DNA of 64,000 bases from Saprospiraceae bacterium (lineage in GTDB: Bacteria; Bacteroidota; Bacteroidia; Chitinophagales; Saprospiraceae). The position numbers were made by a program, and so were the translations under genes. How positions within the stretch are numbered: the stretch's first letter is position 1; each line of letters opens with the position of its first letter. The DNA is taken from NCBI GenBank assembly GCA_016787345.1, contig JAEUUU010000031.1, positions 1 to 64,000 of the forward strand, written 5' to 3'. Shown in pieces: positions 3,194 to 49,855 of the stretch. Below the pieces are notes generated by a model. The model was not told the origin of the DNA, did not search any database, and worked only from the letters and a program-made list of their open reading frames with translations.

Positions 3194-4126
3194 TCAGACG
3201 CCTATTTCACGGTAGCGCTGGGTATTGGCGGGGTCTATTTTGGTCATGATCTGGATCACCCGTTCTTTCTGCGGTTTGGCGCCGATCTTCCACATTTCGA
3301 TGAGTTCGTCGCGTTTGGAATTGGCGAACATCTGTACGATCATGGAATTAAAATAGGCAATGCTGACCTTTTCGATCTCTTCGAGCGATTGCAAAATGGC
3401 GACTTTGCCCTGGGCAATATCGGTAGTAAACATATCCAGCCCTTTCCGGTGGTAGTTGTACATGGCGTTGCGGAAGGGTTTGACGCGCGGATTGAGCAGA
3501 TTTTCCATAATCCAGTACCGGTTGCGGTTTTTACCGCCGTCGCCCGGGCGCCAGCCCGGCGACTTGTTTGAGGTCGAGTTCTGGATATTGGTGACCAATT
3601 GCTGCGCAATCAGGAAATAAGGGTCGCCGCCCTGCGGGGAAAAGGTATCATAGTCCATGCCCAGGATGACGTAGACGTAAAAAGCGAACAAAGCGGGCAG
3701 GTTCTGGTTTTCCGAACCGTCGCGCAGAAACTCGATGGGCTGGTTTTGTTCGTAACTGAAAATAACGTCTTTGTCGAGGTGCGAAAGCAGGGGCGTTTCG
3801 TAGCTGGTACCGTACACCGGGCGCACTGCCTGTACGGCCAGCTCGGCTTCGAAGGTATTGTTGTCCTGCTCGGTTTTTATGGTCATGATGAAGTTGCATT
3901 TGATCCGCTCCTGCGGTTCGAAGGCATCTTCGGTCCATTTGGTGTTGTTGAGAAATTCGCGCAGGGCCGTTTCCAGCTGATCGAACACTCGGCGGTCCGT
4001 CCGCTGCAATTGGGGGGTATTGATCTTAACCGTGCAATTGAGTTCTCCCTGGGCAAAAACGCCGGCATTCAGCAGGAAAAACAACAAAAAGGTACAGCAA
4101 CGGACAATCGTCATTTTATTCATCAT
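3194..4126 (-). CDS. porD: Type IX secretion protein PorD (DUF4835)
   Basis: This 310-residue secreted protein has a signal peptide at residues 1-25 (ending GVFAQ). It shows the DUF4835/PorD hallmarks: LNCTVKIN, then a DRRVFDQLETALREFLNNTKW stretch, then ERIKCNFIMTI, and later FAFYVYVILGMDYDTFSP. PorD is needed for type IX secretion and gliding in Bacteroidota, although its mechanism is unclear. It is the last gene of a same-strand run bamD-rpoZ-coaBC-porD, a setting often seen for this family. At least four T9SS substrates in this window fit its presence. Confidence 0.88.
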   Translation of the reverse strand: MMNKMTIVRCCTFLLFFLLNAGVFAQGELNCTVKINTPQLQRTDRRVFDQLETALREFLNNTKWTEDAFEPQERIKCNFIMTIKTEQDNNTFEAELAVQAVRPVYGTSYETPLLSHLDKDVIFSYEQNQPIEFLRDGSENQNLPALFAFYVYVILGMDYDTFSPQGGDPYFLIAQQLVTNIQNSTSNKSPGWRPGDGGKNRNRYWIMENLLNPRVKPFRNAMYNYHRKGLDMFTTDIAQGKVAILQSLEEIEKVSIAYFNSMIVQMFANSKRDELIEMWKIGAKPQKERVIQIMTKIDPANTQRYREIGV

Positions 4127-4165
4127 AAAAAAGGTGGGACAATAGTATCGACCAATGACGCTTAA

Positions 4166-5371
4166 TCAGGCGTTCGGGTTGGCTTGCCTGATGATTTCCT
4201 CAACAATATCTGCTGCCACGGCAGTCTTGTCTTTCAGATCGAAATCGGTCTGACTGCCGTCGCGGCGCAGGATGCTGATCTTGTTGGTATCGTGTCCGAT
4301 TCCCGCGCCGGGGTCGCGCAGCGAATTCAGGACGATAAAATCCAGGTTTTTCTTTTGCAGTTTTTTGCGGGCATGCTGTACCTCGTCGTTGGTTTCGAGG
4401 GCGAAACCGACCAGAATTTGTCCGGGGCGTTTCTCCCGGCCCAGGGTTGCGGCGATGTCGATGGTTTTGGCCAACTCGATAAATAGGTCGTCGCTTTTTT
4501 TCTTGATTTTCGTTTCCGAGTAATTTTTGGGCTTGTAATCGGCCACGGCTGCCGCCAAAACGGCAATATCGCAGTGCGGAAACACCACTGCGCAGGCTCG
4601 GTGCATTTGTTCGGCCGATTCGACGCGTTCGACCCGAATGGCGGTGTTGGCGGGCCGAAGATGCGTCGGGCCGAGCACCAGCGTGACCTCGGCGCCCTGG
4701 CGGGCAAGACGCTCGGCGAGGGCGATGCCCATTTTCCCGGTAGAACTATTGCCCAGAAAGCGCACAGGATCGAGCGCTTCGTGGGTAGGACCTGCCGTGA
4801 CGAGGGCTTTTTTTCCTGTCAATGCTTTTTTTTCAGCCTGTTGATGGCCGCCCAAAGCCTGATCGACAAATGTGACGATGTCTTCGGGTTCGGCCATACG
4901 GCCGTCGCCGACGAGTCCGCTGGCCAGTTCGCCATGCCCGACGGGAATCAGCCGAACGCCATGCGTTTGCAGGCGTTGCAGGTTGTCGCGGGTGGCCGGG
5001 TGTTGCCACATGTCGAGGTCCATAGCCGGCGCTACAAATACCGGGCAACGCGCCGAGAGGTATACGGCGCTCAAAATATTGTCGCACAAGCCGTTGGCTA
5101 GTTTGGCCAGGGTATTGGCCGTGGCGGGAGCGATCACCAGCGCATCGGCCCAAAGGCCGAGTTCGACGTGGTTGTTCCAGCCTGATTCGGTACTTACTTC
5201 ACTGTGTACCGGATGTTTGGAAAGGGTGGAAAGGGTAAGCGGCGATATAAAATCCGTGGCCGCGTCGGTCATCAGCACCCGCACTTCATCGCCGCGTTTG
5301 ACCCACAAACGCGTGAGCAAAGCAGCCTTATAAGCCGCAATGGAACCGCTGACACCGAGTAAAACCCTCAT
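4166..5371 (-). CDS. coaBC: Bifunctional CoA biosynthesis protein CoaBC
   Basis: This 401-residue protein has an N-terminal flavin decarboxylase half (MRVLLGVSGSIAAYKAALL, then VIAPATANTLAKLANGLCDN, then APAMDLDMW) and a C-terminal ligase half (VTAGPTHEALDPVRFLGN, STGKMG, AAVADYKP). It makes 4'-phosphopantetheine by joining cysteine to phosphopantothenate and decarboxylating the product. The ATG at 5369-5371 is chosen because the family starts at MRVLLGVSG; the open frame extends 21 codons upstream into a repeat with no homology. It sits between rpoZ and porD. Confidence 0.95.
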   Translation of the reverse strand: MRVLLGVSGSIAAYKAALLTRLWVKRGDEVRVLMTDAATDFISPLTLSTLSKHPVHSEVSTESGWNNHVELGLWADALVIAPATANTLAKLANGLCDNILSAVYLSARCPVFVAPAMDLDMWQHPATRDNLQRLQTHGVRLIPVGHGELASGLVGDGRMAEPEDIVTFVDQALGGHQQAEKKALTGKKALVTAGPTHEALDPVRFLGNSSTGKMGIALAERLARQGAEVTLVLGPTHLRPANTAIRVERVESAEQMHRACAVVFPHCDIAVLAAAVADYKPKNYSETKIKKKSDDLFIELAKTIDIAATLGREKRPGQILVGFALETNDEVQHARKKLQKKNLDFIVLNSLRDPGAGIGHDTNKISILRRDGSQTDFDLKDKTAVAADIVEEIIRQANPNA

Positions 5372-5825: not shown

Positions 5826-6647
5826 TCAGGTGGTTTTCAGGCGCTTGCGCAGTTCTTTGAGTTCGGCTTCGGCGTCTTTCCTGATTTGTTTGACTTCCCG
5901 TGCGTTGCCGCTTTTGGGATATTTTTCCAAAAACGCATCGCAGCGTGCAACGGTTTCGGAATAGCGTTCGATTTTCTTGTCGACCACACTGTTTTGGCTC
6001 AACAGGTAATCCGACTTGACGATCAGGTAGCGGACGCGCTCGGCGTCGGGGCTTTCCGGGTAGTCTTTAAGCAGGTTGTCGAATGAAATAACGGCAGCCT
6101 GGTATTGTTTGGTGTTGTAGTACAGCTCGCCTTCGGCAAATGCTTTTTCCTCCAGTTTGCGACGGCACTCGTCGATGAGTTCGTTACATTCCGGCACGCG
6201 TTTGCTCTCGGGGAAAAGGTTGACGAAGGTCTGGAATTCGTCGATCGCAGCCAGGGTATTCGACTGTTCGAGGCGGAAACTGGGCGATTGCTGGTAATTG
6301 GAATAGGCCGACATAAAAGCGGCTTCTTCGCGATAGGGCGAGTTCGTGAAGGTATTGGAAAAGTTTTTGAAATAATAGGCCGACAGCACGAACTGCTTGG
6401 TGTGGTAATGCGCGTAGGCGTACTGAAAATACGCTTTTTCAGCAGCGTCCTTGCCTTTGATCTGGTTCAGCACCAGGTCGAACAGGGTAATGGCACGCTG
6501 ATAGTCTTCTTTCTCGTAGTATTCAAAAGCTTTCTGGAGAATCAGGTCCGGATTGCCGCTGGTACGAACGATCTCGAACTTGCTTTTACAGGCGCTGACC
6601 GCTCCTAACAGGGCAAAAAACAGGAGCCAGGCGAATGTTTTTTTCAT
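5826..6647 (-). CDS. bamD: Outer membrane assembly lipoprotein BamD
   Basis: This 273-residue lipoprotein has a lipobox ending at Cys20 (LGAVSAC). Tetratricopeptide helices follow, including YYEKEDYQRAITLFDLVLNQ, AHYHTKQFVLSAYYFKNFS, SPYREEAAFMSAYS and NTKQYQAAVISFDNLLKDYP. The TPR order and the outer-membrane lipoprotein leader match BamD (YfiO), which works with BamA to insert beta-barrel proteins. It is first in the bamD-rpoZ-coaBC-porD run, and a strong -7 box lies only 7 bases ahead of its ATG. Confidence 0.9.
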   Translation of the reverse strand: MKKTFAWLLFFALLGAVSACKSKFEIVRTSGNPDLILQKAFEYYEKEDYQRAITLFDLVLNQIKGKDAAEKAYFQYAYAHYHTKQFVLSAYYFKNFSNTFTNSPYREEAAFMSAYSNYQQSPSFRLEQSNTLAAIDEFQTFVNLFPESKRVPECNELIDECRRKLEEKAFAEGELYYNTKQYQAAVISFDNLLKDYPESPDAERVRYLIVKSDYLLSQNSVVDKKIERYSETVARCDAFLEKYPKSGNAREVKQIRKDAEAELKELRKRLKTT

Positions 6648-6654
6648 AGGGGTG

Positions 6655-6662
6655 CAAAGGTA
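6655..6662 (-). promoter_or_regulatory. -7 box for the bamD operon
   Basis: CAAAGGTA reads TACCTTTG on the minus strand, a perfect TAnnTTTG. A CAAA (TTTG on the minus strand) lies 22 bases upstream at 6685-6688. The start codon is only 7 bases downstream, which predicts an almost leaderless mRNA. Confidence 0.6.
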
Positions 6663-6833
6663 CAGTTTTTGGTCAAAAAATTGGCAAAATCACTTACAAT
6701 AGCGTTAATCTTTGTCTAAACGAACAAGCCGGTCCGGATGTGACGCCCGAACGAAGAAATTTAAACCTTCACGCCGACTCCAGCGTTTTGCGCTAAAATA
6801 AGACCTTTGTCCGGCCTAACTGTCAAGTAAAAT

Positions 6834-7787
6834 ATGGATGTCCTGACCCACTCTGCCACCACACCCGAACTGGAAGCCGAATTTCAACGCAAGATCGACG
6901 CCGAGCAGCGCATCGAGCCGAAAGACTGGATGCCGGAGGCTTACCGCCGCACCCTGATCCGCCAGATCGGGCAGCACGCACATTCGGAAATTGTGGGCAT
7001 GTTGCCCGAAGGCAACTGGATCACCCGCGCGCCTTCGCTCAAACGCAAGGCCATCCTGCTGGCAAAGGTGCAGGACGAAGCCGGCCACGGACTTTATCTC
7101 TACTCGGCTGCCGAAACCCTCGGCGTAAGCCGCGACGATATGGTGGAAGAACTGCACAGCGGCAAGGCCAAATATTCCTCCATTTTCAACTACCCCACCC
7201 TCAGCTGGGCCGACATCGGAGCCATCGGCTGGCTGGTCGACGGAGCCGCCATCCTCAACCAGATCCCCATCTGCCGCTGCTCCTACGGCCCCTACGCCCG
7301 CGCCATGGTGCGCATCTGCAAGGAAGAAAGCTTCCACCAGCGCCAGGGCTTCGAAATCCTGCTCACCCTCTCGCAAGGCTCGCCCGAACAACGCGCCATG
7401 GCCCAGGACGCCATCAACCGCTGGTACTGGCCCTCCGTGATGATGTTCGGCCCCTCCGATACCGATTCGACGCACTCCGCCCAGAGCATGACCTGGAAAA
7501 TCAAACGCTTCTCCAACGACGAACTGCGCCAGCGCTTCGTCGATATGATCGCCGAACAAATCAAAGTATTGGGCCTCAACATCCCCGACCCCGATCTCCG
7601 CTGGAACGAAGAACGCGGCCACTACGATTTCGGCGCCATCAACTGGGAAGAATTCTGGAACGTGGTGAACGGCAACGGCCCCTGCAACCGCCAGCGCATG
7701 CATGCCCGGGTAAAAGCCTGGGAAGACGGCGAATGGGTGCGCGACGCGGCAAGCGCTTATGCGGAGAAGAGAAATCGGAAGAAATGA
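6834..7787 (+). CDS. paaA: Phenylacetyl-CoA 1,2-epoxidase catalytic subunit PaaA
   Basis: This 317-residue ferritin-like protein carries the two carboxylate-bridged di-iron motifs of Paa[14 protein letters not shown] at about residue 80, and [12 protein letters not shown] at about residue 160. The [17 protein letters not shown]-type substrate region (here [16 protein letters not shown]) is also present. PaaA oxygenates the ring of phenylacetyl-CoA. It is unusual that paaB, paaC and paaD are not next to it; a PaaE-like reductase lies about 17 kb away. The next gene is convergent and separated by a large hairpin. Confidence 0.92.
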
Positions 7788-7950
7788 GGATGCGAGGATT
7801 TGAGGATGCGAGGATTTGAAAAAAGGGTTATTTCTGCTCTCAAAAATGTAGTTGTCATTCGACAAGCCATCCAATGAAAAGAGCAGAAATAACCCTTTTT
7901 TCAAATCCTCGCATCCTCAAATCCTCGCATCCTCAAATCCTCGCATCCTC
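7786..7950. repeat. 55-bp perfect inverted repeat between convergent genes
   Basis: The left arm 7786-7840 and the right arm 7880-7934 are exact reverse complements over 55 bases, with a 39-base spacer. The outer part of each arm is two copies of a GAGGATGCGAGGATTT-type word; the inner part is AAAAAAGGGTTATTTCTGCT. The right side has one extra 16-base unit (7935-7950). The element starts in the paaA stop codon and ends at the stop codon of the facing gene. It may end transcription in both directions. Confidence 0.95.
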
Positions 7951-36039: not shown

Positions 36040-36447
36040 CTAGGCTTCCGAAAGGATGGCTTTGAATTCATCCAGCTTTAATAAAACTAATTTAGGGAAT
36101 TCCACTTGCGACAAAATACGAAATCCGCGATCCTCTGAAACCAAAGCATCTGCCCCACAGGCAACCGCGGCATCTACAAATTTATTGTCATCGGCATCTG
36201 ATAACAGGTTCCAGTTGAAATAGACATTCGTGCGTACAACATTGGGTAAAAAGTCTAGTGCATCCAGAAAAGTATACGCAACTTCCCGGCCATACTTAAT
36301 ACTCAAAACCTCCTCATACTCAGCAAGAATTTCATTTGTGACGGCAAGTTCGTAAGTTCCCTCCATTAAAAGCTGAATCACCCAGTTACTTGAAGAACGG
36401 CGGGAAAGAGATGAAACAAGGATATTGGTATCCAGCACAACCAGCAT
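36040..36447 (-). CDS. PIN-domain toxin (putative ribonuclease)
   Basis: This 135-residue protein starts MLVVLDTNILVSSL with the first PIN Asp. It has a central Glu (EILAEYEEVL) and the conserved acidic cluster SDADDNKFVDAAVACGADALVSEDRGF. This is the 'putative toxin-antitoxin system toxin component, PIN family' type. PIN toxins cut RNA with a metal ion held by the acidic residues. The start is 2 bases after the antitoxin stop, so they are co-translated; an upstream in-frame start (36471) would overlap the antitoxin. Confidence 0.85.
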   Translation of the reverse strand: MLVVLDTNILVSSLSRRSSSNWVIQLLMEGTYELAVTNEILAEYEEVLSIKYGREVAYTFLDALDFLPNVVRTNVYFNWNLLSDADDNKFVDAAVACGADALVSEDRGFRILSQVEFPKLVLLKLDEFKAILSEA

Positions 36448-36449
36448 AA

Positions 36450-36665
36450 TTAAACTTTGCCTTTTCTCCATTCCTCCATTAACATATCGGAATATCCGCG
36501 TTCATCCCATACCCGATCCGCTCCGCTCATGGCTTTTTCGAGTAAATACGCGGCAATCATGCGGCGGATTTCAAGCAGGTCTTTATCCGGCAGGTCGATT
36601 GCAAATACCTTTAACAATTCGCGTTGGAGATTAGTCAGCGAAGGTTGTGCTGCTGTGCTCATCAT
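36450..36665 (-). CDS. Putative antitoxin partner of the PIN toxin
   Basis: This protein of about 71 residues begins MMSTAAQPSLTNLQREL and carries LLEIRRMIAAYLLEKAMSGADRVWDERGYSDMLMEEW. The C-terminal DRVWDERGYS...MEEW pattern is typical of small partners encoded next to PIN toxins. No DNA-binding motif is certain. The ATGs at 36665/36662 are favoured because a perfect -7 box lies 12 bases upstream; another ATG at 36704 lies above that box. Confidence 0.7.
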   Translation of the reverse strand: MMSTAAQPSLTNLQRELLKVFAIDLPDKDLLEIRRMIAAYLLEKAMSGADRVWDERGYSDMLMEEWRKGKV

Positions 36666-36677
36666 CAGAAATTTATA

Positions 36678-36685
36678 CAAAGATA
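36678..36685 (-). promoter_or_regulatory. -7 box for the toxin-antitoxin pair
   Basis: CAAAGATA reads TATCTTTG on the minus strand, a perfect TAnnTTTG, 12 bases ahead of the antitoxin ATG at 36665. Confidence 0.55.
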
Positions 36686-36733
36686 ACCCATTCGGACATT
36701 CCATTTTCAGGGCAGACAAAAAAACATACGTTG

Positions 36734-36761: not shown

Positions 36762-39299
36762 ATGCTGAACCTCAATATTCTCGATGGCCTTTTCGGCGCC
36801 CTAATGGAAACTGCATTCGGCAAAACAGCCGATGCCTTCGAAAAGCGGAACGCCTTCAAACGAGACTTGCTCACCTTTCTGAACGACCAGCAAAAACATA
36901 CCTCGCTGGATGTTTTTTTATTCTCCCGAAGGCCCAAGTATGGCACTGAGGAAAACCCGGAAGATTTCCTGACACTTGAAGAAATCTATATCCCGCTCCG
37001 ACTGGATCAATTGCGTGGCACTTTGCCTGAATTTCAACACCTTAGAGAGATAAGCGGCCAGCAGGATGCCCCGGGCGATCAAAAGATTGAAGACCTTCAT
37101 ATCGGCGGACTGCTTGATCTGATGCAATACAACGAACATTTTCGAAAAGTCATGATCATCGGCCAGGCAGGCAGCGGGAAATCCACTTTTATGAAGTACC
37201 TCACCCGGTTGCTGACGGCTGAAAAACCGGCGGTGAAAGTGGTTGAAAAAACTGAAGAGGGCAAAGCAAACGAAACCACCCGTCCGGTATCCTTCAAAGC
37301 CGTGCCTGTTTTTGTGCGCCTGCGCGATCTGGAAGGAAAGCTGCGTGAAAACGGTCGGTCCGATTGGGATGACAATTATTCCATGGAATCGTTTGTGGCC
37401 GCGTTGTGCGGTCAGCGCTTCGACACCTCTAACTTCTTAGGAAAACTGTTCCGCGATCTGCCCTGCGTCTTTCTCTTCGATGGCATCGATGAGGTGCCCG
37501 AAAACAAAACGATTGACGGGATAACCATCTCCCGCCTGAAGGTTATTTCCTGGCTGTTGCGACAGATGGAACACCTGCGAAAATTCAACCCCGAGGCGCG
37601 TTTTGTACTGACATCCCGACCTACGGATACAGGGGCTTTGGCCCGGCATTTTCAGATATTCGAAACCAAAAAATTCGATGCTGCCGAAATCGACCTTTTC
37701 ACCAAATACTGGTACGAGGGGTGTGAAAAAACCTTTCGGGCCAATGCCAGGGCAGAGTACGTGCCCCACAAGAAGGAAAAATGGCAGCATCGCTGCGATT
37801 ATTTGCCCGAAAGCAGGGCCAATTTTCAGCAGAACGTTAATCGCGAGCCCCTGAAAAGCATAGTTGACAACCCCTTGCTCCTGTCGCTCGCGCTGTTTAT
37901 GCACGTCATCGATCAGCGATTTTCCACGGAGAACCGCGAAAACCTTTACCAGCGTTTTTGCGAGGCCTTTCTTTACGAATGGGACGAAGTGCGCGACATG
38001 GATTTTTATCCGGCCCTTTTCGGGCGCGGCCATTACGAGCGCCTGTTTGAAGTCACTTTTCGGCTGGCATTGCATTTTTCAGAAAACAACACAACAAAAA
38101 TGACGGTGCGCGAATTGCTACCTGCCGTTCAAAAGGCGGTCAGTCGCTACCCGCTTCCAACGGAGACGCCCATGGAAGAACACGCCCTGGAACTCCTGCG
38201 CGCCTTCGACAATCGCAACGGCTTGCTGACCGGCCGCACCACCAGCGACGATTTTTTAGACACCGAATTCGAGTTTCAGCACAAAAGTTTTCAGGATTAC
38301 CTCGCCGCCCAATGTATCAGCCAGGACCGTTTGATCGAACGGAATCAATTCAGTTTTGTGGACAAACTGGATGCAGACTTCTGGCAGCGCACCCTCGAAT
38401 TTTATGTCAATCTCTCCTCCCCCGACCTGTTTTTTGAACAGACCATCGCACTGATTGAGCCGGATCATCCCATCGTGGGCAAACTGCATTATTTCGTTCA
38501 ACACTTTCTCCATGCGCGGCAAAAAGACCCGGCCCTGACGACAGCATTGGCTGAAAAAGTTTGGGAAGTCTTTTTAACAAGCGACACAGTCTGGAATATT
38601 TTTATGGCCAGCCAATGCCTGCACTGGCTGCCTGAAACGCGAACAGAAGTACTGTTTGAACTTGTTCGGCACAGGCATTCCGACGAATTAAATGCATTTC
38701 GGGCAGGGAAAGCCGTTTGGCTGTTGTATAGTAAGGGGCACTACGCTGAATTGCGGAATGTATTGGCCTCAAAAATGGCCGATATTTTTGCAGCCCCTCG
38801 CGAGTATGATTTTATTGACCTTTCTCAATGGCAACTCATTCCGATTGTGAGTAGAGATGTACACTTTCTATGTTTTTATTTTACTTCTCTTCGCTCCGCC
38901 GATAAGGCTTATGGAGGTTTAATGTTGCTGGATTTGCGGTATTTGCGGTATTTGCTGGATTTGCGGTATTTGCTGGATTTGCGGGATTTGCGGGATTTGC
39001 TGGATTTGCTGGATTTGCGGGATTTGCGGGATTTGCTGGATTTGCGGTATTTGCGGTATTTGCGGGATTTGCTGGATTTGCGGGATTTGCGGGATTTGCG
39101 GGATTTGCGGGATTTGCGGTATTTGCGGGATTTGCGGGATTTGCGGGATTTGTATCCTTTTCTCAGGGAAAGAAATAATATAAACTTACAACAGATCAAC
39201 ACCTACCTTGAACGAGTCATATCCAAACTGGACAACCTCACGCCGGAAGAAGAAGCGCGATTATTCAAACCTTATCCACCGCTCGAAACGAACAACTGA
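36762..39299 (+). CDS. NACHT/STAND NTPase with a C-terminal LRD tripeptide-repeat tract
   Basis: This 845-residue protein has an uncharacterised N-terminal region (1-120). The NTPase core has Walker A GQAGSGKST at 134-142, Walker B CVFLFDGIDEVPE with Asp240, and a sensor word RFVLTSRPTD. Winged-helix and helical parts follow, with a FQHKSFQDYLAAQ word typical of NACHT proteins. After a variable helical region, residues 722-796 are 25 uninterrupted tripeptides (LRD 12, LLD 7, LRY 6), then a 49-residue charged tail. NACHT proteins in bacteria often serve as phage-sensing immune ATPases; that role here is inference. No transmembrane helix is evident. It faces away from a PIN toxin-antitoxin pair. 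Confidence 0.85.
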   Translation: MLNLNILDGLFGALMETAFGKTADAFEKRNAFKRDLLTFLNDQQKHTSLDVFLFSRRPKYGTEENPEDFLTLEEIYIPLRLDQLRGTLPEFQHLREISGQQDAPGDQKIEDLHIGGLLDLMQYNEHFRKVMIIGQAGSGKSTFMKYLTRLLTAEKPAVKVVEKTEEGKANETTRPVSFKAVPVFVRLRDLEGKLRENGRSDWDDNYSMESFVAALCGQRFDTSNFLGKLFRDLPCVFLFDGIDEVPENKTIDGITISRLKVISWLLRQMEHLRKFNPEARFVLTSRPTDTGALARHFQIFETKKFDAAEIDLFTKYWYEGCEKTFRANARAEYVPHKKEKWQHRCDYLPESRANFQQNVNREPLKSIVDNPLLLSLALFMHVIDQRFSTENRENLYQRFCEAFLYEWDEVRDMDFYPALFGRGHYERLFEVTFRLALHFSENNTTKMTVRELLPAVQKAVSRYPLPTETPMEEHALELLRAFDNRNGLLTGRTTSDDFLDTEFEFQHKSFQDYLAAQCISQDRLIERNQFSFVDKLDADFWQRTLEFYVNLSSPDLFFEQTIALIEPDHPIVGKLHYFVQHFLHARQKDPALTTALAEKVWEVFLTSDTVWNIFMASQCLHWLPETRTEVLFELVRHRHSDELNAFRAGKAVWLLYSKGHYAELRNVLASKMADIFAAPREYDFIDLSQWQLIPIVSRDVHFLCFYFTSLRSADKAYGGLMLLDLRYLRYLLDLRYLLDLRDLRDLLDLLDLRDLRDLLDLRYLRYLRDLLDLRDLRDLRDLRDLRYLRDLRDLRDLYPFLRERNNINLQQINTYLERVISKLDNLTPEEEARLFKPYPPLETNN
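38925..39149 (+). repeat. 25-copy perfect 9-bp tandem repeat inside the NACHT gene
   Basis: The unit is TTGCGGGAT, with only two variable positions: base 5 (G or T, giving Arg or Leu) and base 7 (G or T, giving Asp or Tyr). All 25 units are in frame. Leu is always TTG, Asp always GAT and Tyr always TAT, so no silent change is present. Adding or losing units would keep the reading frame. Confidence 0.97.
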
Positions 39300-39420
39300 A
39301 ATAAGGAAAATCTTACCCGCTTTTTTCTCTTAAATTGCATTATCTCCGATGTCGGAGTCCTACTGCTGTAACATCCTGATTGCCCCCATTTTCACCAACA
39401 TCTTCACCTCCCACAGCCCC

Positions 39421-41538: not shown

Positions 41539-42075
41539 CCCGCTGTCTTACAAGTTCGGGCCGGCTCAGATATTATTTCACACAAGTCGTGAAGCGCGCA
41601 AAGAGTTTTTTTTGTTGCACGCAGAGACACGGAGGGATTTGAGTTTCACGCAAAGGGCGCAAAGGAGCAAAGCGCGCAAAGGGGGATTTTTTGTTGCACG
41701 CAGAGGCGCAGAGGGATTTGAGTTTCACGCGAAGGGCGCAAAGGAGCAAAGCGCGCAAAGGGGGGAGGTAAAGTTGTTTTGTTGCACGCAGAGACGCGGA
41801 GGCGCAGAGTTTTTGATTGTGAATTATAATCTCTTTCCTCATATGATTTGCTCCTTTGCATCCCGCTGTGTCACTGCATGCAATAACAAGTCCCTATCCA
41901 TCTTTGCGCGCTTTGCTCCTTTGCGCCCTTTGCGTGAAGCTCTAAGCCCTCTGCGCCTCTGCGTGCAATAAAAACGCGCTTTGCTCCTTTGCGCCCTCCG
42001 CGTGAAACTCTAAGCCCTCCGCGTCTCTGCGTGCAACACCCCTCCCTTTGCGTGATTAGCGGCGCAGCGCGCATA
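41539..42075. repeat. Large repeat cluster between convergent genes
   Basis: Two plus-oriented units (41641-41685 and 41725-41765) contain TTTCACGCAAAGGGCGCAAA and GGAGCAAAGCGCGCAAAGG. Two opposite copies (about 41902-41940 and 41974-42006) carry the complements. GCACGCAGAGGCGCAGAG-type words lie between them. The units can pair as long stems. No transposase or open frame with a recognisable product is present. Confidence 0.8.
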
Positions 42076-47363: not shown

Positions 47364-47513
47364 ATGAAACATTGGGAAAAAGGCAAAAAAGACCACCGCC
47401 GCGACGACGAACGTCAATCCATCCAGGAATCCCACAAAAAGAAAAAACTCAAGCCTGTCGAAAAAAACAAATATCGACTCAGGCTGCATGGCGACGACAA
47501 TATGGATGATTGA
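47364..47513 (+). CDS. Small highly charged protein (49 residues)
   Basis: The frame starts MKHWEKGKKDHRRDDERQSI and ends RLRLHGDDNMDD. About half of the residues are charged, and it has no Cys and no hydrophobic segment. It is preceded by a perfect promoter, and its stop overlaps the edge of a hairpin element, as at paaA. No known family was recognised. It may be a small nucleic-acid-binding or stress protein; that is only a guess from charge. Confidence 0.65.
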   Translation: MKHWEKGKKDHRRDDERQSIQESHKKKKLKPVEKNKYRLRLHGDDNMDD

Positions 47514-47668
47514 GGATTCGAGTATTTGAGGATTCGAGTATTTGAAAAAAGGGTTATTTCTTCCCTCTAATTGCGATGATTTCAGACGATAGAAATCGCA
47601 TATGAGAGCAGAAATAACCCTTTTTTCAAATACTCGAATCCTCGCATCCTCAAATCCTCAATCCTCAA
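47512..47668. repeat. Inverted repeat element, second copy of the 20-base core family
   Basis: Bases 47530-47561 are the exact complement of 47610-47641 (32 bp), with a 48-base spacer. The inner part is again AAAAAAGGGTTATTTCT; the outer part is GGATTCGAGTATTTGA-type. The right side carries further CTCGCATCCTCAAATCCTCA units. It fills the gap between two convergent genes. Confidence 0.92.
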
Positions 47669-49855
47669 TCATTGCTTCATCATCTCCCCGCTCATACCCA
47701 GCAAGCCCATCATCCAGGAATATTCCAGGGCGCGTTCTTTAAGCACCTCGAAGCGGCCCGAGGAGCCGCCGTGCGAGCCGCTCATATTGGTTTTGAAGAG
47801 CAGGTTGTTGTTGCCGGTCTTTTTGTCGCGCAGGCGGGCGACCCATTTGGCGGGTTCGAAGTATTGCACCTGCGAATCGGCAAATGACGTCAGTACGAGC
47901 AGGTTGGGATAATTTTGGGCCTTCACGTTGTCGTAGGGCGAGTATTGTTTCATGTAATTGTACTCGTCGGCATTGGCCGGATTGCCCCATTCGCTGTATT
48001 CGCCGGTGGTCAGCGGGATACTGGGATCGCTCATGGTGGTGAGCACATCGACGAAGGGCACGCCGGCGATAATGCCCTTGTATTGCTCTGGCGCCATATT
48101 GGCCACGGCGCCCATGAGCAGGCCGCCGGCCGAACGGCCCGAGGCAAAAAGGCGGTCGGCAGAAGTATATTTCTGATCGCAAAGGGCTTTGGAGCAGTCG
48201 ACGAAATCGGTGAAGGTGTTCATCTTGTGCTGCATTTTACCGTTTTCATACCAGGAGTAACCCATTTCCATACCCCCCCGGATGTGTGCGATGGCGTACA
48301 CGAAACCGCGGTCGAGCAGGCTCACGGCATTGCGGTTGAAGCCCGGATCGTAGGAGAAACCGTAGGAGCCGTAGCCCACCAGCAGGCAGGGGGCGTTGCC
48401 GTCGCGTTTGACGCCCTTGCGGTATACCAGCGACACCGGCACCAGGGCGCCGTCGCGGGCCTTGACGCGGATAAACTCCGTGACGTAGTTGTCGGCATTG
48501 AAGCCGCCGAGCACGGGTTGTACTTTTTTTACGGTCTTTTGGCGGCTCGCCGGATCGTAGTCGATCACCGTGGCGGGTGTTTTCAGCGAGGAAAAATTGT
48601 AGCGCAGCACCTTGGAATTGAAGTCCGGAAGCGGGAAGATGCCCGCGTCGTAGGTCGGTTCGCCAAAATCGAGGTAGTGCTCGCTTTTATCGGCCCAGCG
48701 GATGATGCGGATTTGTTTGAGGCCGTCTTTGCGTTCGCCCACGACGAGAAAATCCTGGTACACATCCACGCCATAGAGCAGCACGTCGGCGCGGTGGGGC
48801 AGCATTTCTTTCCAGTTGGCCGGCGAGGGATCGCTGTCGGGAGCGGTCATAAGGCGGAAGTTCTGCGCATTCCAGTTGGTTCGGATGACGAACTGGTCGC
48901 CCCAGTGGTCGACGTCGTAGAAAAACCCTTTTTCCCGCGGCCGGATGACGCGGAATTCGCCCGTCGGATTATCGGCGGAGAGGTAGTGGTTTTCCACGGT
49001 TTCCGTATAGGCGTGGGTGATAAAGATGAATTTATCGTCTTTCGACTTGCCCAGGTAGGCGTAGGTGGTTTCGTCGGTTTCCGTGAATACCAGGGCATCT
49101 TTTTTGGTGGGCGCGCCCATTTCGTGCCGCCAGACCTTGTCGGTGCGCAAGGTGACGGGGTCTTTGGTATCGTAGAAAAAGTATTTGCCGTCGTTCGACC
49201 AGGCCGAGGTGCCGGCGGTTTCGAACTCATCGGGCAAGGCGCGGCCGGATTGCAGGTCGAGGAATTTTCCTTTGAACAGGTTGCGGCCCGTGTAATCGAC
49301 GATGTAGTACAGCGTACGGTTGTCGGGACTGACGCTCAGCCCCTCCACCATGCAGTAGTCGTGGCCTTTGGCCATTTGGTTGACGTCAATCAGGATTTCC
49401 TCGGCGGCTTCTAGGCTGCCTTTTTTGCGGCAATGAATGGGGTATTCCTTGCCCGTTTCGAAGCGGGTGTAGTACCAGTAGCCGTTTTTGAAATAAGGAA
49501 CCGAGTTGTCGTCTTCCTTGATGCGGGCGCGCATTTCTTCGTAAAGTTGGTCGCGCAGGGTAGCCACGGGCGCCAGTACGGAGTCGGCATAGCGGTTTTC
49601 GGCTTCGAGGTAGGCGCGCACTTCCGGGTTCTCGCGTTCGTTGAGCCAGTAGTACTCGTCGACGCGTTTGTCGCCGTTGGCGGCGGTGAGTTCTTTGGGC
49701 TTTTGAGCCGGGTGAGGCGCGGTAAATTGTTCGGGATGAAAAACGGATGGAGGCATGGGTGTTACGACAGAAGTAGTTTCGGCTGATTTATCGGATTGCC
49801 CGCAGGCAGCGAGCAAAAGCAGCAGGACAGGGCATAGAAAACGCAAAGATTTCAT
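47669..49855 (-). CDS. ptrB: Prolyl oligopeptidase family protease, oligopeptidase B-like (S9A)
   Basis: This 728-residue protein has a lipobox-like leader (LLLLAAC) and so may be a lipoprotein. An N-terminal propeller follows (starting near DEYYWLNERENPEV). The C-terminal alpha/beta hydrolase has the nucleophile GRSAGGLLMG, the Asp region TSFADSQVQYFEP and His in MSGSHGG. The RGG word (HIRGGMEMGYSWYENGKM) is typical of oligopeptidase B, which cleaves peptides after basic residues. The ATG at 49855 is preferred to a TTG two codons upstream. Confidence 0.92.
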   Translation of the reverse strand: MKSLRFLCPVLLLLLAACGQSDKSAETTSVVTPMPPSVFHPEQFTAPHPAQKPKELTAANGDKRVDEYYWLNERENPEVRAYLEAENRYADSVLAPVATLRDQLYEEMRARIKEDDNSVPYFKNGYWYYTRFETGKEYPIHCRKKGSLEAAEEILIDVNQMAKGHDYCMVEGLSVSPDNRTLYYIVDYTGRNLFKGKFLDLQSGRALPDEFETAGTSAWSNDGKYFFYDTKDPVTLRTDKVWRHEMGAPTKKDALVFTETDETTYAYLGKSKDDKFIFITHAYTETVENHYLSADNPTGEFRVIRPREKGFFYDVDHWGDQFVIRTNWNAQNFRLMTAPDSDPSPANWKEMLPHRADVLLYGVDVYQDFLVVGERKDGLKQIRIIRWADKSEHYLDFGEPTYDAGIFPLPDFNSKVLRYNFSSLKTPATVIDYDPASRQKTVKKVQPVLGGFNADNYVTEFIRVKARDGALVPVSLVYRKGVKRDGNAPCLLVGYGSYGFSYDPGFNRNAVSLLDRGFVYAIAHIRGGMEMGYSWYENGKMQHKMNTFTDFVDCSKALCDQKYTSADRLFASGRSAGGLLMGAVANMAPEQYKGIIAGVPFVDVLTTMSDPSIPLTTGEYSEWGNPANADEYNYMKQYSPYDNVKAQNYPNLLVLTSFADSQVQYFEPAKWVARLRDKKTGNNNLLFKTNMSGSHGGSSGRFEVLKERALEYSWMMGLLGMSGEMMKQ

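Follow-up and report, generated by a model that had tools for sequence, protein, structure and literature searches.

A leucine-rich tripeptide array near the C-terminus of a bacterial NLR-related NACHT protein from the Saprospiraceae

Introduction

Bacterial proteins related to the NOD-like receptors (NLRs) and built on a NACHT module include the defence proteins bNACHT25 (NCH1) and bNACHT02/12 (SNaCT) (PMC12169576, accessible text); the present work concerns a NACHT gene in a 64,000-nucleotide stretch of DNA from a Saprospiraceae bacterium (GCA_016787345.1, contig JAEUUU010000031.1, positions 1 to 64,000; hereafter the window), the product of which carries near its C-terminus an array of 25 leucine-initiated tripeptides. 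Like the described defence proteins, it combines a central NACHT module, here with an NLR-like predicted fold, and a variable C-terminal part; it differs from them by its tripeptide arm, of which the accessible text of that report makes no mention. In other NACHT proteins, which carry NCH2 (PF22727), a tract of the Leu/Arg/Asp/Ala type is found shortly before NCH2 (4 of the 8 proteins scanned, from loci L279, L280, L186 and L188); the window protein differs from these in its tripeptide unit, in tract codons that do not end in C/T, and in that NCH2 is not among the 25 best of its 27 Pfam families at E≤1.

Two further groups of proteins invite comparison. In fungal NLRs each repeat unit is a complete repeat fold, some 30-40 residues long. 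When highly conserved, these WD, ANK or TPR repeats are reported to change in number, to evolve in concert and to be under positive selection at a few positions (PMC4986451, accessible text); near-identical C-terminal repeats are common to them and to the window protein, whereas the unit of the latter is three residues long, and the fungal study compared isolates while the window array comes from a single genome. Bacterial NACHT antigen sensors diversified by diversity-generating retroelements (DGRs), that is, by reverse-transcriptase mutagenesis of a C-lectin domain (PMC10907252, accessible text), are likewise NACHT proteins with a hypervariable sensor part, but their target is that domain, in contrast with the tandem array of the window. 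Such NACHT tracts are not described in the titles and abstract openings found in the literature, which does not establish their absence from print. The best reading of the array, held with a confidence evenly balanced by doubt, is that a bacterial NLR-like switch protein carries in it a sensor arm which grew by slippage and is under selection at the protein level.

The tripeptide array

The gene and its parts are as follows:

36762..39299, forward strand: NACHT gene, 845 amino acids; ATG start, open frame without stops, self match 1-845
37146..37691, forward strand: NACHT NTPase domain, residues 129-310 (PF05729)
38379..38924, forward strand: helical region between the NACHT core and the tract, residues 540-721 (AlphaFold2 helices)
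38925..39149, forward strand: tripeptide array, 25 units LRD/LLD/LRY, residues 722-796 (Tandem Repeats Finder, TRF, and in-frame unit split)
39150..39299, forward strand: C-terminal tail of 49 residues (797-845), partly helical, with the stop codon

TRF reports a single array at 38925-39152 (period 9, 25.3 copies, 91% matches), whose score of 365 is the top of the 18 rows for the window. Read in frame, 38925-39149 comprises 25 whole units, namely 12 TTGCGGGAT (LRD), 7 TTGCTGGAT (LLD) and 6 TTGCGGTAT (LRY), in the order LYYLYLRRLLRRLYYRLRRRRYRRR (R, LRD; L, LLD; Y, LRY); the strict period-3 tract that the original prediction had placed at residues 722-796 is thus borne out, while its description of the protein as ending in these tripeptides has to be corrected, 49 residues coming after them. 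The codons employed are TTG, then CGG or CTG, then GAT or TAT: bases 5 and 7 of the unit alone vary, both being G or T, LLY is never seen, and the other seven bases of the unit, every third codon base among them, are invariant, with zero silent changes. Such codon homogeneity is typical of the recent expansion or homogenisation which had been proposed on this ground; however, at random two single changes would both be replacements about half the time, so that a single array free of silent changes is unsurprising alone, and the comparison with a second array, L149 (see below), therefore carries the weight.

A 27-base pattern of the tract has 23 matches in the 5.28-Mb assembly, all of them overlapping inside this array, and a BLAST search of 38780-39330 against its own genome yielded, besides itself, one 31-base match at E 0.056. 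An origin as a dispersed repeat was rejected, a 36-base pattern of the tract being present only in the window's own genome among the 298 scanned of the family and absent from the 297 others. Also set aside were a match of the tract to the 25-residue 'Nascent chain' of PDB entry 9c3h (E 0.0002), taken as a low-complexity match, and weak matches to internalins (E≥0.03).

The assembly is a 191-contig draft, and because of this the exact copy number is unproven; yet that the copy number, or the array itself, should be an artefact of assembly is very improbable in view of the three unit types, their irregular order and the frame kept on both sides, of the same vocabulary in the independent assembly of L149, and of tracts of a wider set (see below) in plasmid records titled complete (L279, L280). 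The main rival explanation is rather that a functionless 9-bp minisatellite has grown in frame near the gene end, where it is tolerated because nine-base units keep the frame, a possibility to be taken seriously, if on the whole an unlikely one. The variants of the window array, all replacements and none silent, agree with this explanation, as do the low predicted confidence of the tract and an opposite strand that is also open across it (38909-39202), while the maintenance of the frame into a partly helical tail speaks against it.

A parallel array in Candidatus Aminicenantes

A short-repeat scan of the C-terminal parts of NACHT loci identified L149, a NACHT protein of Candidatus Aminicenantes (806 residues; Pfam NACHT, 55.9 bits), in which 14 units (6627-6752), made of the same three tripeptides, stand at the place corresponding to that of the window array in the order LRY LLD LRY LLD LLD LLD LRY LRD LLD LRD LRD LRY LRD LRD. 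The codons are different ones, namely CTC, then CGA or CTA, then GAC or TAC (LRD is CTC CGA GAC in L149, against TTG CGG GAT in the window), and in both arrays the variants arise by the same two G-to-T changes. The variation inside each array is all replacement and corresponding units of the two arrays differ silently only, which, judged on these two sequences, would be the reverse of what is expected of an ordinary gene; if equal rates are assumed, a second array would have a probability of about 0.003 of varying by just this pair of single-base changes, before the shared LRD word is counted. The use of the same words in other codons suggests that the repeats are kept for the function of the protein, and their recurrence in a NACHT protein from a different phylum, at the equivalent position and in different codons, argues against the minisatellite. 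Two histories fit: the arrays may have arisen independently under selection at the protein level, or one ancient array common to both lineages may have been re-homogenised in each; under either of them it would be the protein sequence that is kept.

The pattern of L149 has 12 overlapping matches, all in one array, which is the sole match in its 8.2-Mb genome, and no such tract was seen in the frames of the ten other NACHT-type matches of that genome. The two proteins are 23% identical over residues 129-562 of the window protein (NACHT region), and the similarity of their N-terminal parts and tails is weak (shuffle p 0.011 and 0.01). An array with the vocabulary LRD/LLD/LRY, preceded by the NACHT body and followed by a short tail, is found in the window protein and L149, and no third period-3 NACHT tract emerged from the profile searches of 365 and 371 genomes. 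A shared unit order is not claimed: the 14 units of L149 are a subsequence of the 25 of the window (shuffle 0.009), but the within-half shuffle gave 0.09 and the alignment score 0.43. In the L149 locus an AAA_16/KAP-like ATPase gene (3335-4498) precedes the NACHT gene by 1 base on the same strand, and its product is a possible partner of the Aminicenantes NACHT protein.

Domain organisation and predicted fold

The NACHT NTPase assignment holds, with the Pfam model PF05729 at 31.4 bits (cut-off 26.7) and with an NLR-like predicted fold. The P-loop is the sequence GQAGSGKS at 134-141, and the acidic DGxDE motif lies at 240-244; G137, G139, K140, T142, D240, G241, D243 and E244 are invariant across 8 aligned proteins. 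The AlphaFold2 model, computed from 58 sequences, has a mean predicted local distance difference test score (pLDDT) of 73.7 and a predicted template modelling score (pTM) of 0.70, and its top Foldseek matches in the PDB are 4kxf (NLRC4, E 4e-11), 5irm (NOD2, E 1e-9) and 8ej4 (NLRP3, E 4e-9). The protein is a bacterial NLR-related (STAND/NACHT) protein, of a known kind, and the 'undescribed system' of the original prediction was too strong a term, the unusual feature being the C-terminal arm. The 25 best of the 27 Pfam families include no leucine-rich repeat (LRR), TPR, WD or pentapeptide model, in keeping with the remark that the period is unlike those of LRRs, pentapeptides and TPRs, and no N-terminal domain; NCBIfam gave only matches of the ABC/ECF-ATPase type, far below cut-off, and PADLOC weak matches only, at the P-loop region and one at 229-275.

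After the NACHT part, helices extend to about residue 720, the 10-residue mean pLDDT declining from about 89 to about 39 along residues 540-721, and the tail contains helices at 809-824 and 828-834 (10-residue mean 55-77). Prediction of the fold of the tract, which had been proposed as a check, returned helices, at low confidence (pLDDT about 39-58); for the tract of L149 a helix is predicted as well (about 35-53). These low-confidence helices, the richness in Leu, Arg and Asp and the position of the tract in relatives, flanked by the NACHT body on one side and a terminal helical domain on the other, would suit an array that senses nothing and serves as a structural spacer or as an oligomerisation helix, its composition being of importance. 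This alternative appears quite improbable to us: the hypervariability of L077/L078 (see below) and the maintained mix of words fit recognition better, and it can be reasoned that a 3-residue period gives no fixed face on an ordinary alpha helix.

Tracts in other NACHT proteins

Relatives were sought by scanning a contig collection (84,980 species) with a NACHT alignment, which returned at least 368 of them, 80 loci being kept; the alignments employed comprised 57 proteins and the window protein and, in a second one, 28 (L149 included) and the window protein. Sixteen further NACHT proteins carry short-period tracts of the Leu/Arg/Asp/Ala type near the C-terminus (for instance RALDRALDRALD, DLALDLALDLAL, RVLDLDLDRVLD and LASALDLDLASALDLD), and they occur in the same genus (L077, L078, L082), in another Bacteroidota family (L109), in cyanobacteria, Thiotrichaceae, Poribacteria, Planctomycetota and others; in 3 of the 8 scanned the tract follows an FGE-sulfatase match (that of L118 just under cut-off). 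When a tract is defined as a stretch of 40 residues with no more than 2 belonging to the set K, E, G, P, Q, T, M, W and C, which was chosen, to the detriment of the argument, after some tracts had been seen, it is present in 8 of 77 C-terminal parts (3 of the 80 tails, shorter than 40 residues, were dropped), in 0 of 80 N-terminal parts and in 1 of 229 neighbour open reading frames (ORFs) (Fisher p 9e-5), the lone ORF (L112) being itself the tract-bearing part of the NACHT gene, in another frame; with at most 3 of 40 the counts become 11/77, 0/80 and 6/229. This concentration of tract-type regions in NACHT C-terminal parts is a further point against a functionless minisatellite.

L077 and L078, orthologues that share their flanking genes, are identical at 456 of 520 residues (88%, gap-free) before the tract and at 23 of 44 aligned residues, with 38 gap columns, within it; with the tail that follows also diverged, the whole C-terminus is evidently fast and the tract fastest. 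The claim of a fast-changing, length-variable tail is thus upheld in part, by this most variable equivalent region and by the 14 units of L149 against 25 in the window.

Further observations were made on individual loci. L076 and L091, from other species of the genus, encode shortened NACHT proteins of the L077/L078 family which stop before the tract. In L112 (6374-7522) the tract-bearing C-terminal half of a NACHT gene is in a frame different from that of the NACHT part, and in L179 (5601-6590) it follows a stop codon in the same frame; judging from the sequences, these split genes would be either inactivated genes or draft-assembly errors. The cyanobacterial plasmids L279 and L280, titled complete, encode NACHT proteins whose tracts, of Ala/Arg/Asp/Ser and of Thr-Ser-Ala-Leu, are long, and the NACHT gene of L279 stands by MoxR and VWA genes.

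Codon signature of the tracts

The fraction of fourfold codons with C or T as third base is at least 0.83 in 13 of 16 tracts, against 0.41-0.60 upstream in the same genes, and two plasmid genes (106/112 and 42/42 fourfold codons ending in C/T) bring the tracts concerned to 15 of 18; the exceptions are L114 (16/30), L149 (15/40) and the window (4/30), the counts for the window and L149 covering 95 and 91 residues respectively, and thus extending beyond the arrays. Entropy is lowest at the third base in 17 of 18 tracts, compared with 8 of 18 upstream parts and 3 of 14 neighbour-ORF repeats, the tract of L112 among these (Fisher p 3e-5); this measure is partly biased by the choice of tracts poor in K, E, Q, M and W, a bias which the fourfold count avoids. 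A fixed base 3 with varied bases 1 and 2 suggests growth by short repeats followed by replacement changes, through either selection or a process that spares position 3; the counterpart of this signature in the window array is that silent change is wholly absent.

AAY mutagenesis would vary codon positions 1-2 more than 3, and the wider set of tracts does vary in this way. A tract diversified by a DGR, as in some NACHT C-lectin targets, could accordingly be envisaged, DGR-diversified NACHT sensors being known to exist (PMC10907252, accessible text), but such an origin is scarcely credible here: the window variation is between G and T at two unit positions and does not involve adenines, the three reverse-transcriptase matches of the genome (E≤1e-5) are on contigs C117, C118 and C146 and the window on C12, the array is tandem and not a C-lectin region, and the tracts contain few codons for Gly, Pro, Thr and Cys, in part owing to how they were picked.

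Searches for homologues

Close homologues of the window protein were sought among 149 relatives, of which two matched (itself and one NACHT-only match), and among 395 in the phylum, with two matches again (itself and one). In the contig collection, with the window protein as query, 16 stretches matched a pattern and none was a relative; residues 1-719 gave five stretches in viral contigs, none a relative, and residues 1-713 no match in a phage collection. The search of the N-terminal part that the original prediction had called for has thus yielded distant NACHT-core matches only, and close homologues without the tract, which would have told against it, are inapplicable as a test because no close homologue was found. 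Thirteen of 72,556 plasmid records have NACHT-region matches, at 21-25% identity; 14 of 38 plasmid match rows (some from the same records) were examined and represent 12 distinct NACHT genes by DNA, 2 of them with a tract. From other genomes, 33 of 34 NACHT matches were analysed (the second L105 match being left out), together with L108 and L109; the L103 protein, with a frame of 1499 residues, has no tract. Some of the C-termini are truncated where a contig stops: L089, L095 and L100 touch an end of the fetched stretch, and L212 and L214 end with their contigs.

Several candidates were discarded, namely the viral contigs sharing the 9-mers (L036-L040), which have them in other frames or are apparently unrelated; L191, which looks like an intergenic TACCTCC repeat; and, among 148 pattern stretches obtained from viral contigs with the tract as protein query, the one relative, L230, a QEQMELVELLDL-type repeat.

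Genomic neighbourhood

Nearest to the NACHT gene lie a PIN-domain gene accompanied by a small partner, a gene for a TPR protein and one for an ABC-F-type ATPase, and the neighbours examined are not a clear defence island. The PIN_3-domain gene (36040-36719, reverse strand) lies just before the NACHT gene and overlaps an upstream ORF of 89 amino acids, with which it is likely to form a toxin-antitoxin pair; PADLOC has no match for this pair or for the TPR protein, while for the ABC-F-type ATPase it returned mad3 (E 3e-45) along with other ATPase models, matches which are taken to reflect a similarity general to ABC ATPases. Immediately downstream of this ATPase gene is a cluster of CGCAAAG/CGCAGAG-type repeats (41592-42038) with inverted arms of 64-79 nt. 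Elsewhere in the window, at 7778-7942 and 47502-47669, are two elements with inverted arms, 63 nt long and 95% complementary in the first and 66 nt and 88% in the second, made of 8/16-bp GAGGATTTGA-like tandem units; they are possibly members of a dispersed family.

Arrays outside NACHT genes and the weighing of the sensor-arm reading

Searches with a profile of the tract, built from two sequences (the window and L149 arrays), matched 6 of 365 and 9 of 371 genomes, 5 and 8 of which are other genomes, and 9 and 14 other places were viewed. At these places there are many arrays with a unit of 9 bp or the like, lying outside NACHT genes in frames that are short or antisense, with words such as LRE, LRD, LKD, LSD, LHD, LRS and the like; examples are L235 (GAATTACGA), L237 (GTTAGAGAA), L239 (CTGCGTGAT) and L256 (TTAAGAGAT), and L258, L259, L264, L265, L266 and others are of the same sort. 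A NACHT gene was recognised at none of them, the long frame of L262 not being identified. Leu-rich period-3 frames of non-coding 9-bp arrays are therefore not rare and a chance in-frame array is possible, in favour of the minisatellite. L235, L237, L256, L258, L259, L264, L265 and L266 are apparently non-coding and belong to Bacteroidota and to the phylum of L149.

These arrays weigh against a sensor arm, and several other results do so too. Period-3 LRD tracts are known in two NACHT genes only, and the proteins concerned are not mutual nearest relatives, many loci being closer to the window protein than L149 is (among the matches listed); the similarity of their middle regions is not significant (p 0.08), and in both the tract is predicted at low confidence. 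The C/T rule fails in the window and L149, which may therefore be a different thing from the other tracts. A perfect-repeat score of at least 8 (9/80 NACHT tails vs 12/229 neighbour ORFs) gives no clear separation, nor does an entropy below 2.6 bits (7/77 vs 10/229, p 0.15); in L077/L078 the post-tract tail has diverged as well (34/57 identical), and the whole-chain Foldseek template modelling scores (TM-scores) to NLRs are low, about 0.26-0.36.

Proposed mechanism and significance

Most probably the array is part of a ligand-responsive C-terminus of an NLR-like switch, its repeat number and word mix being adjustable by slippage. On this reading, Leu-x-x tripeptides with two two-state positions (Arg/Leu and Asp/Tyr) would form an arm between the NACHT/helical body and the terminal helical part; the array would lengthen or shorten by 9 bp via slippage or unequal exchange, with homogenisation of its silent sites as the outcome, while protein-level selection would retain the three-word vocabulary and the mix of words. 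The arm, helical according to the low-confidence prediction, would contact a ligand, which is probably a protein of an invader or a stress protein, and its length or composition would set the binding target or the threshold for nucleotide exchange by the NACHT module, which would lead to oligomerisation and trigger the response; the passage from ligand to oligomerisation belongs to general NLR biology. A bolder proposal, and a doubtful one, is that micro-repeat arms (2-4 residues) constitute a combinatorial recognition code, here Leu-[Arg/Leu]-[Asp/Tyr], made and remade by a process that alters codon positions 1-2 and leaves position 3 unchanged, whereby lineages without a close relationship would arrive at identical words.

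How sensing is diversified in bacterial NLR-like proteins is largely open, DGRs being one proposed route. If true, the code would represent a repeat-based diversification of sensors distinct from LRRs, from the shuffling of whole-domain repeats and from DGRs; shared words in other codons, together with frozen third bases, provide a concrete signature for searches, and three residues with two two-state positions a simple testable part. If real, the array would tie slippage-driven repeat change to bacterial innate sensing, as conserved repeats may in fungal NLRs.

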